From: Anaerolineales bacterium
GTDB taxonomy: Bacteria > Chloroflexota > Anaerolineae > 4572-78 > J111
Assembly: GCA_012032575.1 (NCBI GenBank)
Contig: JAAUSP010000493.1
Coordinates: forward strand, 1-5,815
DNA length: 5,815 nt
Reading direction: 5' to 3'
Positions 1,471 to 5,675 of this stretch are shown piece by piece. Positions within the stretch are counted from its first letter, which is position 1. Every line of letters begins with the position of its first letter. The position numbers were made by a program, and so were the translations under genes. A model generated the notes under the pieces. It searched no databases. It was given only the letters and a program-made list of their open reading frames with translations, and was not told the origin of the DNA.

Positions 1471-2016
1471 TTAGCTTGCTTTCGATTGACTCGTTTCCAT
1501 CTCAAACACCTGCCGGGCCAGTAGAACCCCGTTCTGTTCAAGCGAAGACAGCTTATACGGCATCGTCACCGGGTCCACCCACTCGATGGAGAGGATTTCA
1601 TGATTTTGGGTAGCCTGAGCGAGCGCACGGGCTACGGTCTGGCTATCGTCGAGCGGGCGGCAGTAGTAAACCAGGCCCAGCCCCGGCGGAGTCGTATTTT
1701 TCGGCAGAAAGCCGCCTTGCCGCATGCACAACACCAGCTTTTTAACCTCAATCCTGAGCGCCAGTTCCTCTTCAACTTCCCGCCGGACAGTTTCAGCCGG
1801 GTCTTCACCGCGTTCCACCCAGCCGCCCGGCAGCCCCCAGGGGAAATGCGGTCGAAAAACGTGCTCCATCACCAAAACCTGGCCGGCTTCATTGAAGATG
1901 ACGCCCACCGCGCCCACATAATGGCGGGGGACAAACAAGCGCACCGCCAGTGCCAGCAGCCAGCGCAATAACCGGAACCGGCGCAGCCAGCCCGCCAGTT
2001 GTCGCTTAAAACTCAT
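1471..2016 (-). CDS. Nudix hydrolase
   Basis: A 181-residue protein with a near-complete Nudix box at residues 65-87: G65, E71, R79, E80, E83 and E84 fit G-x5-E-x7-R-E-U-x-E-E-x-G-U. The one deviation is Ala86 where Gly is usual. E80, E83 and E84 are the expected metal-binding and catalytic glutamates. The preceding PWGLPGG motif is typical of the family. Nudix enzymes hydrolyse nucleoside diphosphates linked to another group; the substrate cannot be read from sequence. Residues 8-29 are an unusual Arg/Leu/Trp-rich amphipathic extension before the fold, perhaps a membrane-contact helix. The ATG start overlaps the stop of the upstream selenoprotein gene (ATGA, 2016-2013) and has no strong ribosome site of its own, so translational coupling is likely. 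It ends at a TAA (1471-1473). Confidence 0.92.
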   Translation of the reverse strand: MSFKRQLAGWLRRFRLLRWLLALAVRLFVPRHYVGAVGVIFNEAGQVLVMEHVFRPHFPWGLPGGWVERGEDPAETVRREVEEELALRIEVKKLVLCMRQGGFLPKNTTPPGLGLVYYCRPLDDSQTVARALAQATQNHEILSIEWVDPVTMPYKLSSLEQNGVLLARQVFEMETSQSKAS

Positions 2017-2747
2017 TTTGGCTCAAGCAGCGACTCGATGGCAGTCTGAAAAACCTCAAAGGGCTGGCCGCCGACAATCAATTGTCCGTTCACATCAAAT
2101 GTGGGCCGGGCACGAATCCCAAGCTGGCGGCGGCGGTCGTCCTGGCTTTGCACCAAATCAGCCGTGTGCTCCTCGTCAATACAGGTATTAAACTGGGCCG
2201 CATCGAGCGGGAGTTGAGCGGCCAGATCCTTGCTAACCTGGGCTACGTCGCTGCCGTACAACGCATTCTGGTGTTTAAACAAAAGGTCATGCATCGGCCA
2301 GAACATGCCCTGCTCTCCGGCACAGGTCGCCGCCATGTGCGCTTGCCGCGAGCCTTGGCCCAGGTCTATCATCGGGTTAAAGACCAGCTTAACCTGGCCG
2401 CTTTTGACATAGCTTTGCTCAAGTTGCGGTTCGGTTCCTAACACGTAGGAACGACACGTGCCTCACAAAAAGTCAGAATAATCAATAAGGGTCACGGGCG
2501 CATCGGGGTTGCCCTGGTAGAACAGGTTGTCGGCAGTTTTGCCCTCGACGGCCAGCCAATCAACCACCTCCGCCGGCGATGTGGCTTTGTCAGGGGGCGC
2601 TGTCGCCGCCTCAGCCGTAACCGGCACAGCCTCAGTGGGGGTTGCCACCTGCGTGGGTGTAGATACCGCCAGCGGCGTCTCTTTGCCAGCGCCTCCGCAA
2701 GCGGCCACGATAAATACTATAAAAGTTAGCCAGAACCAGGATCGCAT
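2013..2747 (-). CDS. DsbA/thioredoxin-like selenoprotein lipoprotein (U-G-T-C active site, in-frame TGA at 2465-2463)
   Basis: Read through the TGA, this is one 244-residue frame. Residues 1-17 are a lipoprotein signal (WFWLTFIVFIVAAC, lipid-bearing Cys17). A Thr/Pro/Ala-rich linker runs to about 78. The DsbA-type fold (Thioredoxin_4 class) then begins with GNPDAPVTLIDYSDFL. In this family that strand is followed by C-x-x-C; here it is followed by TGA-Gly-Thr-Cys98, so codon 95 is at the first active-site cysteine. The rest is intact: FNPMIDLGQ, ATCAGEQGMFWPMHDLLF, an NTCIDEE segment, and the cis-Pro loop RPTF (Pro215) followed by VNG and VGGQPF. The frame is identical on both sides of the TGA and a SECIS-like hairpin follows it. 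I infer selenocysteine insertion and an extracytoplasmic thiol-disulfide oxidoreductase. Standard annotation would give two fragments, 2747-2463 and 2444-2013. The gene overlaps the Nudix start by four bases. Confidence 0.88.
2434..2465 (-). promoter_or_regulatory. Bacterial SECIS element following the Sec UGA codon
   Basis: In the mRNA the UGA (2465-2463) is followed by ten unpaired nucleotides, then a perfect 7-bp stem: GUUCCUA (2452-2446) and UAGGAAC (2440-2434), closing a 5-nt loop CGUGU (2445-2441). The loop has G at its second position (2444), with 18 nt between the UGA and that G. These values fit the known bacterial pattern: a stem-loop just downstream of the UGA, a short apical loop with G among its first two bases, and UGA-to-loop spacing of roughly 16-37 nt. 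It would bind SelB carrying Sec-tRNA. The element lies inside the coding region, so its bases also encode residues 95-105. Confidence 0.82.
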
Positions 2748-2909: not shown

Positions 2910-4330
2910 TTAGGGCAGGTAAAGCACCTGGCCTACAAAAAGCTGATTAGGATTGCTCAACCCGTTGGCGGCAGCAATGGCCTCGGCGGGAGCGCCATAG
3001 AAGCGGGCAATCGAGTAAAGCGTTTCGCCAGCAGCAACGGTATGGGTTCCGGCTCCACCGGGCTGCATCGGCACGCCGTAACCGGGTGCAGGATAAGCGT
3101 TACCATCTTGCCCAGGCTGGGCATACCCCTGACCCGGTTGTTGATAGTAACCATCCTGGGGCTGCTGCGGATAGCCCTGGCCCGGCTGCTGGTAATAGCC
3201 ATCTACCGGAGGCTGCTGGTAGTAACCATCTGTCGGTGGTTGAGCATAGCCTTGACCAGGCTGCTGGTAATAGCCATCCGCTGGCGGCTGTTGGGGATAG
3301 CCCTGGCCTGGCTGCTGGTAATAACCATCTACCGGCGGCTGTTGGTAGTAACCATCGGTTGGCGGTTGGGCATAACCTTGACCGGGCTGCTGGTAGTAGC
3401 CATCCATGGGCGGCGGCTGCGGATAGCCCTGGTTGGGGTCGTAACCAGGGGCAGGCATAGCGCCATCGTAACCCGGAATAATCAACGGCTGGCCTTCGTA
3501 AATAATATACGGATAGGCGATATTGTTGGCGCTGGCAATGGCTTCAACCGAGGTGCCATAGCGCATGGCAATGCTGAACAGAGTGTCGCTGGGGGTAACA
3601 ATATAAGCGCGGCCGGTCCACCTGGAGCATAGGGCATTGGTCCGGGGGCATAACCACTCTCGCCGCCGGGAGCCGCATAAGGATCGCCACCGGGAATGTT
3701 CAACGATTGACCGATTTGGACCATGTCGGAGGTCAGGGCGTTAGCGGCAACAATGGCCTCCACTGAGGTTCCATACCGCTGGCTGATGCTGAACAGTGTA
3801 TCACCGGCCTGGACAATATAATTACCGCCAGAGCTGGCCGCCGGAATGACCGGATTGGTATCACTGTAGGGCGGATTCGTTGCAATCGGGCCGCCTTCGG
3901 GCAAATCTTGCGGCGCGGCGGCATCCACTACGATGGATTGTGAGGGGGCCTCGGCTTCGCCCGCAGGAGCGCTGTCTTCGGCGGCGAGCGCTGCGGCTAC
4001 AGCGCTATCCTCAGCCACCGGTTCTGCTTCCTGTGAGGCTTCAACCGGCTGAGTTGTGGGAGCGACCAATTCAATAGGGGTCGTCTCAACTCCGCTGGCC
4101 GCTGCTGCCGGAGTAGCGGTTGCCTGCACGCTCAGAACGGTCGGCACGGCGGTCGCCTCGCTCGCCAGAGTCGTGTTTTCTGACCCCAGCGGAGCCAGGG
4201 TAGGGGGCAGTGCTTCGACTGGACTCATGTCCGAGACTTCGCTGCTGTCTCGCGCCAATTCACAGCCGGTTAAAACAGATATCAAGGCCAGCGCAAGCAG
4301 AAAATAGTGAAATTTGGGCCAGCTTCTCAT
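2910..4330 (-). CDS. Triple-LysM surface lipoprotein with Tyr/Gln-rich repeat tract, frameshifted near 3608
   Basis: Start is the ATG at 4330, preceded by AAGGAG at good spacing; an in-frame ATG at 4360 lacks this. Residues 1-23 are a lipoprotein signal ([14 protein letters not shown], Cys23). An Ala/Pro/Thr/Glu-rich linker runs to about 168. LysM1 spans 170-214 ([13 protein letters not shown]...SLNIPG). The frame then changes: the first frame continues into nonsense and stops at 3482, while the -1 frame from about 3608 to the TAA at 2910 encodes LysM2 ([18 protein letters not shown]...LIIPG), seven DGYYQQP repeats and C-terminal LysM3 ([17 protein letters not shown]...VLYLP). Joined length is about 473 residues. 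LysM domains bind peptidoglycan or related N-acetylglucosamine polymers, so the protein probably links the membrane to the cell wall. The frameshift looks like one lost base, either an assembly error or a recent mutation. The gene has its own promoter and terminator. Confidence 0.85.
3110..3425 (-). repeat. In-frame tandem repeat encoding DGYYQQP / GQGYxQ units
   Basis: The translated tract has seven DGYYQQ units, interleaved with five GQGY(A/P)Q units and PP-x spacers. They form a 42-residue (126-bp) higher-order repeat present about twice: 'catctaccgg' recurs at 3200 and 3326, exactly 126 bp apart. Copies differ mostly at third codon positions, so the peptide is better conserved than the DNA. 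The tract connects LysM2 to LysM3 and has low-complexity, Tyr/Gln/Pro/Gly-rich, probably disordered character. Confidence 0.9.
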
Positions 4331-4336
4331 AAAAAT

Positions 4337-4342
4337 CTCCTT
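4337..4342 (-). promoter_or_regulatory. Ribosome binding site deciding the LysM lipoprotein start
   Basis: AAGGAG (4342-4337) lies six bases before the ATG at 4330. This favours that start over the in-frame ATG at 4360. It also gives a conventional lipoprotein signal beginning MRSWPKF, with the lipobox LTGC at residues 20-23. Confidence 0.8.
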
Positions 4343-4393
4343 CTGCCGATTGAATAACATCAGTAATTCGACATAACTCTATATAACGTTACA

Positions 4394-4632: not shown

Positions 4633-5592
4633 ATGAAACAAATGACGATGCTGCGCTGGCTGGGGATGGTGGTTTTCGCAGTGATGCTGAACGGCTGCAC
4701 CCTGGGGCCGCAGGCCGGGCAGGACAAAACCCTGAAAGTGGGCTTGCTGCCCATTTTGGATGTGCTGCCCTTTTATATTGCCCAGGAAAAGGGTTACTTT
4801 GAGGCCGAGGGTATTAAGGTAGAGTTAGTGCCGGTCAAAAGCGCCCAGGAGCGGGATGCTCTGATTCAAGCGGGTGAGATTGAAGGTCAATTGACCGATC
4901 TCATCTCGACGGCCCTGCTGGATAAGGAAACTACCCAGGTGAAGGTGGTAGCCAAAGCCCGCAAAGCCTATCCCGATTTTCCTCAATTTCGGATTGTTGC
5001 TGCGCCGGGAGTGACTATCAGCAGCCCGGCCGATTTGGCCAATGTGCCGATTGGGATTAGCCAGAATACAACCATCGAGTACCTCAATGACCGCCTGCTG
5101 GGCGAGTGGGGCTTGCCGGCAGACCAAATTGCTATCGAAGAGGTCAGCGCTATCCCCACCCGTTTTGAACTGCTGATGAACGGCCAGATCAAAGCCGCGC
5201 TGTTGCCCGATCCGATGGCCCAGGCCGCTATCGCCGCCGGAGCCACGCTGATTGTGGACGACACCGAAATTCCGCAGTTTTCGCAGAGCGTGCTGGCCTT
5301 CAGCGCCACGGCCCTGGAGAACAAATCCGATACCATCCGGGCTTTTCTGCGGGCCTGGAACAAAGCGGTGGCCGACATCAACAAAGACCCCAATGCCTAC
5401 CGGGACGTGTTGATTGAACAGACCCGTGTGCCGGAGAGCATCCAGGGGACTTACAACGTGCCTCAGTTTCCCCTAAACGAAATTACCAGCGAAGCCGAAT
5501 GGGCCGATGTGGTCAAATGGGCGCAGGAAAAGGGGCTGATCGAGCAGCCGGTGGCTTACGAAACGGCAATTGATAGGAGTTTTGTGCAGTAA
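4633..5592 (+). CDS. ABC-transporter substrate-binding lipoprotein, NMT1/SsuA/TauA-like
   Basis: The 319-residue protein has a lipoprotein signal (MLRWLGMVVFAVMLNGC, lipobox LNGC, Cys22). A periplasmic-binding type II fold of the NMT1/SsuA class follows: LKVGLLPILDVLPFYIAQEK then GYFEAEGIKVELV (34-66), the AQERDALIQAGEIEG ligand-cleft segment, SSPADLANVPIGI at the domain crossover, a long helix with EYLNDRLLGEWGL, and ALLPDPMAQAAIAAGA before the return to lobe 1. The length is normal. Relatives capture sulfonates, nitrate, thiamine precursors or other small organics for an ABC importer; the ligand here cannot be assigned. No ATPase or permease is adjacent: the upstream gene is divergent and the downstream gene convergent. 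The gene is therefore monocistronic in view and the partner components must lie elsewhere. It has a good promoter, strong ribosome site and a downstream hairpin. Confidence 0.9.
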   Translation: MKQMTMLRWLGMVVFAVMLNGCTLGPQAGQDKTLKVGLLPILDVLPFYIAQEKGYFEAEGIKVELVPVKSAQERDALIQAGEIEGQLTDLISTALLDKETTQVKVVAKARKAYPDFPQFRIVAAPGVTISSPADLANVPIGISQNTTIEYLNDRLLGEWGLPADQIAIEEVSAIPTRFELLMNGQIKAALLPDPMAQAAIAAGATLIVDDTEIPQFSQSVLAFSATALENKSDTIRAFLRAWNKAVADINKDPNAYRDVLIEQTRVPESIQGTYNVPQFPLNEITSEAEWADVVKWAQEKGLIEQPVAYETAIDRSFVQ

Positions 5593-5594
5593 AA

Positions 5595-5675
5595 AGGAAG
5601 TATGGAGGGTTGGAAGTACGGAAGGCTGGTTAAGGAAATATCCGATCTTCCAACCTTCCAACCTTCCTCGGTTTT
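5595..5675. terminator. Long inverted repeat between convergent genes, probable bidirectional terminator
   Basis: A 22-bp imperfect inverted repeat (5595-5616 with 5647-5668, three mismatched positions) encloses a 30-nt loop that contains a further CGGA/TCCG pair. The right arm is built from a repeated CCAACCTT unit. On the plus strand the stem is followed by CGGTTTTATT; on the minus strand the hairpin is followed by five Ts (5595-5591). It lies three bases after the stop of the substrate-binding protein and just past the stop of the convergent peptidase, so it can end both transcripts. Confidence 0.65.

Follow-up and report, generated by a model that had tools for sequence, protein, structure and literature searches.

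An apparently stop-interrupted DsbA-like lipoprotein gene of an Anaerolineales bacterium very probably encodes an active-site selenocysteine

Gene organization at the locus

The window, the whole stretch of DNA that was analyzed, comprises 5,815 nucleotides of an Anaerolineales contig (JAAUSP010000493.1). Its minus strand carries two leftward open reading frames, 2747-2463 (94 amino acids, beginning with ATG) and 2444-2013 (143 amino acids, beginning with GTG), just where an earlier note made from the letters alone had placed them. Read through together, they form a single gene (2013-2747, minus strand) of 244 codons and a terminator that is itself TGA. The interrupting TGA is codon 95 (2463-2465, minus strand), and the frame contains no other stop. 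The residues around this codon are DYSDFL-U-GTC-RSYVLGTEP, where U is the predicted selenocysteine (Sec), which aligns with a Cys of relatives. The conserved Cys98 (2454-2456, minus strand) completes a UxxC motif as the putative resolving residue. By inspection, the N terminus resembles a lipoprotein signal peptide with a lipobox, ..FIVAA-C17 (2697-2747, minus strand). The read-through translation, together with the Pfam and NCBIfam matches described below, identifies the product as a DsbA/Thioredoxin_4-like lipoprotein with a predicted Sec.

Next to it is a gene for a NUDIX hydrolase (1471-2016, minus strand); the start codon of this gene and the Sec gene's stop codon overlap in ATGA. The same order is found in L001, a locus from the closest genome relative of the window, the Anaerolineales metagenome-assembled genome G001. 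When frames of 100 amino acids or more were compared (BLAST below 1e-8) with those of L001 and of 16 fetched stretches, 17 loci in all, L001 was alone in sharing both the NUDIX gene and a LysM gene with the window. The latter, a LysM-repeat lipoprotein gene (2910-4360, minus strand), consists of two overlapping frames in the window, 3482-4360 and 2910-3566. Its homologue in L001 is one intact frame of 490 amino acids, which points to a frameshift near 3600 in the window's LysM gene, perhaps an assembly error. Elsewhere in the window, an NMT1/THI5-like substrate-binding lipoprotein is encoded on the other strand at 4633-5592 (Pfam PF09084, 77 bits), and an inverted-repeat-like stretch is visible by eye at 1030-1115, between a GH99-like gene and a 91-amino-acid frame. 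A palindrome-like stretch at 5595-5668, perhaps an intergenic repeat or terminator, drew four Rfam matches, which were sub-threshold microRNA models on both strands.

Predicted fold and family assignment

Pfam Thioredoxin_4 matches residues 76-238 (2034-2522, minus strand) across the TGA with 95 bits (cut-off 23.2), and a thioredoxin-fold domain is also indicated here by the AlphaFold model and its structural matches. The model has a mean pLDDT of 86.5, with values of at least 95 in every ten-residue block from 71 to 240, and it places residue 95 between a strand (85-91) and a helix (96-114). We find in it the features of a DsbA-type protein, namely a thioredoxin fold with a helical insert, an active site at the N terminus of helix 1, and a cis-Pro. 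In alignments with DsbA/Thioredoxin_4 proteins, codon 95 falls on the first Cys of CxxC, a placement that the earlier note had proposed checking. The NCBIfam profile NF041057, "Rcas_1661 family thioredoxin-like (seleno)lipoprotein," matches the product with 259.5 bits (cut-off 190) over residues 7-239 and profile positions 2-246 of 247. The prefix Rcas presumably denotes Roseiflexus castenholzii, a member of the Chloroflexota.

Several residues are typical of the window protein and its close relatives. In the family alignment, the cis-Pro position is residue 215 (2103-2105, minus strand), preceded in the window by Arg. Among the 73 domains of the window's clade (family A; see the tree below), the preceding residue is Arg (45) or Gln (28), as opposed to Thr in 78 of 90 other domains with U or C. 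Also invariant across the 73 are Cys142 (2322-2324, minus strand) and Cys189 (2181-2183, minus strand), which may form a pair. In the window's family the cis-Pro follows Arg or Gln, and the residues separating U from C are small, where relatives have Thr-cisPro and PF or PY; on this basis the family is probably not a plain DsbA-type oxidase. VKOR genes were present in 15 of the 16 related genomes searched, a co-occurrence that does not by itself establish a link to the Sec protein.

The in-frame TGA is conserved among relatives

A search of 5.8 billion proteins returned 41 matches. The Cys-containing relative that the earlier note had called for is P0002, which shares 57% identity over 97% of the query. 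At the place of the window's DYSDFLUGTCRSYVL it reads DYSDFLCSTCRSFVL, with DYSDFLCSTC at the active site. More than half of the matches (22 of 41) are pieces of 140 to 154 amino acids from behind the TGA, including the window's own (P0003). P0003 and 20 of the other pieces share the same start residue, and P0005 instead has 11 unrelated residues in front. Three further matches (P0034, P0038, and P0041) are front halves ending exactly before the TGA. With 21 split pieces besides the window's own among database proteins, the expectation that gene callers would divide this gene was borne out.

At the genome level, G001 carries the TGA, and the stem and loop of the hairpin described below are identical to those of the window. 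We sampled 396 genomes of the class of G001. All of the 20 best matches have one in-frame TGA, at the place of codon 95, and one of these 20 also has a TAA in the matched stretch; as to the stops elsewhere that the earlier note had named as a sign of a decaying gene, the best-scoring homologues have their single TGA at this position. A direct pattern search for D-[Y/F]-(Ser, Thr or a few others)-D-F-x-TGA-x-x-C found 46 sites in 42 of the 396 genomes, compared with none for the reversed pattern. Alignment puts 44 of the 46, from 41 genomes, on the active-site position of a DsbA-like domain, and 37 of these have the window's own type of motif. The remaining two look like chance.

Across 143 domain rows of fetched loci, duplicates included, the codon-95 column reads U in 100, C in 27, Ser in 11, and Asn in 2, with 3 unaligned; these loci were fetched largely for having a TGA, and the proportions are therefore not natural frequencies. 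Within family A, the codon is TGA (62 domains) or Cys (11), never another.

A covarying hairpin follows the TGA

Ten bases behind the TGA begins a hairpin that we assign as a bacterial SECIS (2434-2452, minus strand), based on its sequence, covariation over 41 relatives, and Cys controls. Its 7-bp stem pairs 2446-2452 with 2434-2440 around the loop CGTGT (2441-2445), which lies 17 nucleotides (nt) from the TGA. A 2026 review (PMC13188914) quotes a bSECIS model with a stem of 4-16 bp, a loop of 3-9 nt with a G in its first two bases, a distance of 16-37 nt from the UGA, and a minimum free energy of at most -7.5. With 7 bp, the loop CGUGU, and 17 nt, the window hairpin agrees with the model as described there. 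The 50 nt downstream of the TGA fold with -10.9 kcal/mol, a value not lower than that of shuffled sequences (z 0.23), and an Rfam search of the window with permissive thresholds gave no SECIS match, only six chance-looking ones.

To these single-sequence results the relatives add covariation. After removal of duplicates and of sites too near a contig end, 77 distinct TGA sites were kept from the 143 domain rows and divided into group A, the 41 sites whose motif is of the window's type, and group B, the other 36. In group A, 94.4% of 287 stem cells are paired (41 distinct relatives), with all seven pairs formed in 28 sequences, six in 11, five in one, and four in one. Changes occur on both sides in six of the seven pairs, a number that shuffled data also reach (58 of 500). 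Double-change cells, however, number 84 against a shuffle mean of 27.5, and none of 500 shuffles reached as many. Because shuffle tests are inflated by relatedness, we also slid the stem by one to three columns, a control that keeps relatedness; covariation fell from 0.763 to 0.089-0.128. As a further control, 22 distinct Cys domains pair at only one to four of the seven positions at this place.

The stem also leaves its mark on the codons. In 36 of 41 sequences, codons +5 and +9, counted from the TGA, complement each other completely (shuffle mean 7.1, maximum 15 in 5000), and the residue pairs that they encode are diverse (Ser/Gly, Ala/Arg, Phe/Glu, Arg/Thr, Gly/Ser). We lean toward the view that the hairpin of the window's family forces complementary codons at +5 and +9, such that the RNA signal shapes the protein around its own active site; we hold this view jointly with that of repeated Sec gain presented below.

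In a later set drawn from the phylum, five Sec rows (L127, L128, L129, L131, and L133) pair at only five of seven positions in the 17-nt geometry, and six Cys rows also reach five of seven; a hairpin below six of seven thus does not discriminate between them. The one evident relic among these six Cys rows is L132 (G600, around 1771), which has TGC at the active site yet retains the hairpin seen in L127 and L133, its sisters with Sec. Judged by this likeness, the L132 hairpin is a relic of a recent change from Sec to Cys. Remnant SECIS elements behind Cys codons are described for other families in PMC1794560.

Selenocysteine machinery in related genomes

The genome of the nearest relative, G001, contains selA (585 bits), a tRNA-Sec (69.7 bits), and selD (368 bits) with an in-frame TGA. 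Its selB is in fragments (C4:34134-36000), plausibly because of assembly indels. Among the 42 pattern-positive genomes, one of which (G126) is counted through a chance site, we found a SelA match in 36, SelB over its cut-off in 33, a tRNA-Sec of 59 bits or more (59-76) in 36, and a SelD match in 39. SelD exceeds its cut-off in 37, and the selD gene of all 37 has an in-frame TGA. Every one of the 42 has at least two of these four components. Genomes of the class without the pattern have the machinery just as often: among 38 of them, SelA, SelB, and tRNA-Sec were searched and found in 36, 34, and 32, respectively, so the co-occurrence is permissive rather than discriminating. By these gene counts, the sampled class mostly decodes Sec. 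In one genome (G306, locus L162), a selD with an in-frame TGA adjoins a Sec-DsbA gene (C65:5648-6586, minus strand, and 6956-7630, plus strand).

Paralogues with other hairpins and tandem proteins

A quick tree of 178 domains combined P0002 with the fetched rows and with those from 20 loci that had been chosen as matches without TGA. The window groups with L001 and the Cys protein P0002 (SH-aLRT 98), within a clade of 73 rows, 62 with U and 11 with C (SH-aLRT 96). On this tree, in which 65 of 174 inner branches fall under 80, the U label requires 23 changes, and branches with support of at least 95 make no fewer than 12 of them unavoidable. For an earlier tree, of 150 rows, the corresponding numbers were 18 and eight.

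The group-B sites differ in their RNA signals. Fifteen of the 36 (the UPYC/UPFC-GRF type) share a different hairpin, at a distance of 28-29 nt; 96.2% of its cells are paired, and its covariation is 0.438 against at most 0.093 when slid. The 12 sites of the UPFC-RH type, which belong to tandem proteins, have a conserved stem in which nothing covaries and four of the seven pairs never change; with 10 nt, the loop lies outside the bSECIS rule. Of the remaining nine sites, which are mixed, the tree assigns five (L066, L085, L096, L110, and L118) to family A. Two loci, L054 (28-2004) and L093 (996-2684), encode tandem DsbA-like proteins of three domains, with two in-frame active-site TGA codons and one dead domain each; the order of active-site residues is U, Asn, U in L054 and U, U, Ser in L093. 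Both exceed the NF041057 cut-off (461.5 and 379.7 bits, in three stretches each), and two single-domain group-B proteins that were tested fall below it (164.6 and 172.3).

Paralogues with a covarying hairpin at another distance and two-Sec tandem proteins together suggest repeated gain of Sec, or a moved SECIS. We consider it somewhat more probable than its opposite that Chloroflexota DsbA-like paralogues, tandem two-Sec lipoproteins included, repeatedly gained Sec at one and the same active-site position (or moved their SECIS), and that at least two lines each possess a separate covarying hairpin at a separate distance from the UGA, 17 nt in the window's family and 28-29 nt in the UPYC/UPFC-GRF type. 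In the literature searched, we met neither tandem two-Sec proteins nor paralogues with Sec and a covarying hairpin at another distance.

Alternative readings of the TGA

A TGA within a frame could simply be damage: a Cys gene hit by a nonsense mutation or misread in sequencing, or a gene in decay. The contig is not error-free, as the frameshifted LysM gene next door attests. However, L001 has the same TGA, 41 genomes have one at the aligned position, the 244 codons hold no second interruption, 21 other database proteins preserve the reading frame downstream of the TGA, and a covarying hairpin follows. Damage is refuted because the TGA is conserved, and we give it next to no credence. The two halves might instead be separate products, with UGA ending a short lipoprotein, GTG at 2444 starting a second protein, and the hairpin regulating re-initiation. 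Database pieces do begin at ATG or GTG just behind the TGA, but such a split cuts through the active site, the Cys forms P0002 and L002 are single proteins, and the restriction of the codon to TGA or Cys in all 73 family-A domains speaks for one product; we regard two products as extremely improbable.

The remaining readings accept that the TGA is translated and differ in the amino acid. Reassignment of UGA to an ordinary amino acid in this lineage would explain the read-through, but the window gene and its L001 counterpart both terminate with TGA, and the best matches have a single TGA per matched stretch, at the Cys position, which leaves a variant code scarcely any room. A selC-like tRNA-Cys with a UCA anticodon is a possible decoder of UGA as Cys, and it would suit a position that is a Cys position and a tree in which Cys and Sec forms interchange. 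Against it stand a hairpin kept under selection and, among the 42 pattern-positive genomes, the tRNA-Sec (59-76 bits) in 36, SelA in 36, and TGA-containing SelD in 37; its likelihood is very small, a shade above that of the other three. We are highly confident that 2013-2747 is a single gene and that its product is a secreted thiol-disulfide oxidoreductase with a lipid anchor and the DsbA/BdbD fold, in which Sec is the first active-site residue (U95-G-T-C98), on the basis of the frame, the aligned position, the conserved TGA, the covarying hairpin, the predicted fold, and the family.

Discussion

What appeared to be a gene broken by a stop is, as far as its sequence and those of its relatives tell, very probably an intact bacterial redox protein in which the stop is read as an active-site selenocysteine. 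The earlier note's central proposal, that a lipid-anchored DsbA-like protein of the Chloroflexota has Sec as its first active-site residue, is supported by Cys relatives, the conserved TGA, the covarying SECIS hairpin, and Sec machinery in relatives' genomes. For the window protein itself we infer Sec incorporation, SelB binding, lipidation, and chemistry as follows. SelB with Sec-tRNA would bind the hairpin at 2434-2452 just behind the codon, so that UGA is read as Sec. The protein would be exported and lipidated at Cys17. A selenolate at the start of helix 1 could then exchange with disulfides of extracytoplasmic substrates, with Cys98 as the resolving residue.

A gene that gene callers split is in this reading whole, with its SECIS backed by strong covariation, and for annotation it makes a case for applying NF041057 to uncultured genomes. 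Related domains mix Sec, Cys, and dead (Ser, Asn, Tyr) sites and have hairpins at varied distances, including one relic behind a Cys codon. This mixture, with the differing hairpins and the relic, makes gain and loss of Sec at one enzyme position directly testable.

Among known structures, BdbD of Bacillus subtilis (3eu3) is the best structural match to the window model (TMt 0.83, 27% identity). Corynebacterium DsbA/TsdA, which likewise has a DsbA-type fold, is also among the best structural matches; by profile the best are 4pwo and 7unn, and the first Cys of CPFC in 4pwo aligns with U95. In contrast to BdbD and the Corynebacterium proteins, the window protein has Sec for Cys, GT between the active residues, and Arg before the cis-Pro. 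DsbA-like selenoproteins appear in surveys from 2006 (PMC1794560) and 2008 (PMC2398784). By their description in these surveys, the DsbA-like and DsbA 1-3 selenoproteins (PF01323) resemble the window protein in being DsbA-like and in having Sec, in UxxC or UxxV, and they are listed for marine metagenomes and other organisms. A literature search, with a scope mostly outside subscription journals, found surveys, one listing of NF041057 in the 2026 review, and no study of the protein; the names of the family led to that review only.

The closest known system is NF041057 itself. The earlier note had regarded a lipid-anchored Sec oxidoreductase of this kind as unfamiliar, a claim that does not hold: NCBIfam already names the family a "(seleno)lipoprotein," and PMC13188914 tabulates it as "DsbG-like protein" with UxxC. 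The window protein shares with this family a near-full-length match, the UxxC motif, and lipoprotein character, by name in the one and by lipobox in the other. We found no defining difference from the family; the window contributes a sequence new to it, and the source is an uncultured relative of Anaerolineales. The window protein is therefore a member of an already catalogued family, and its RNA signal is very clear here.
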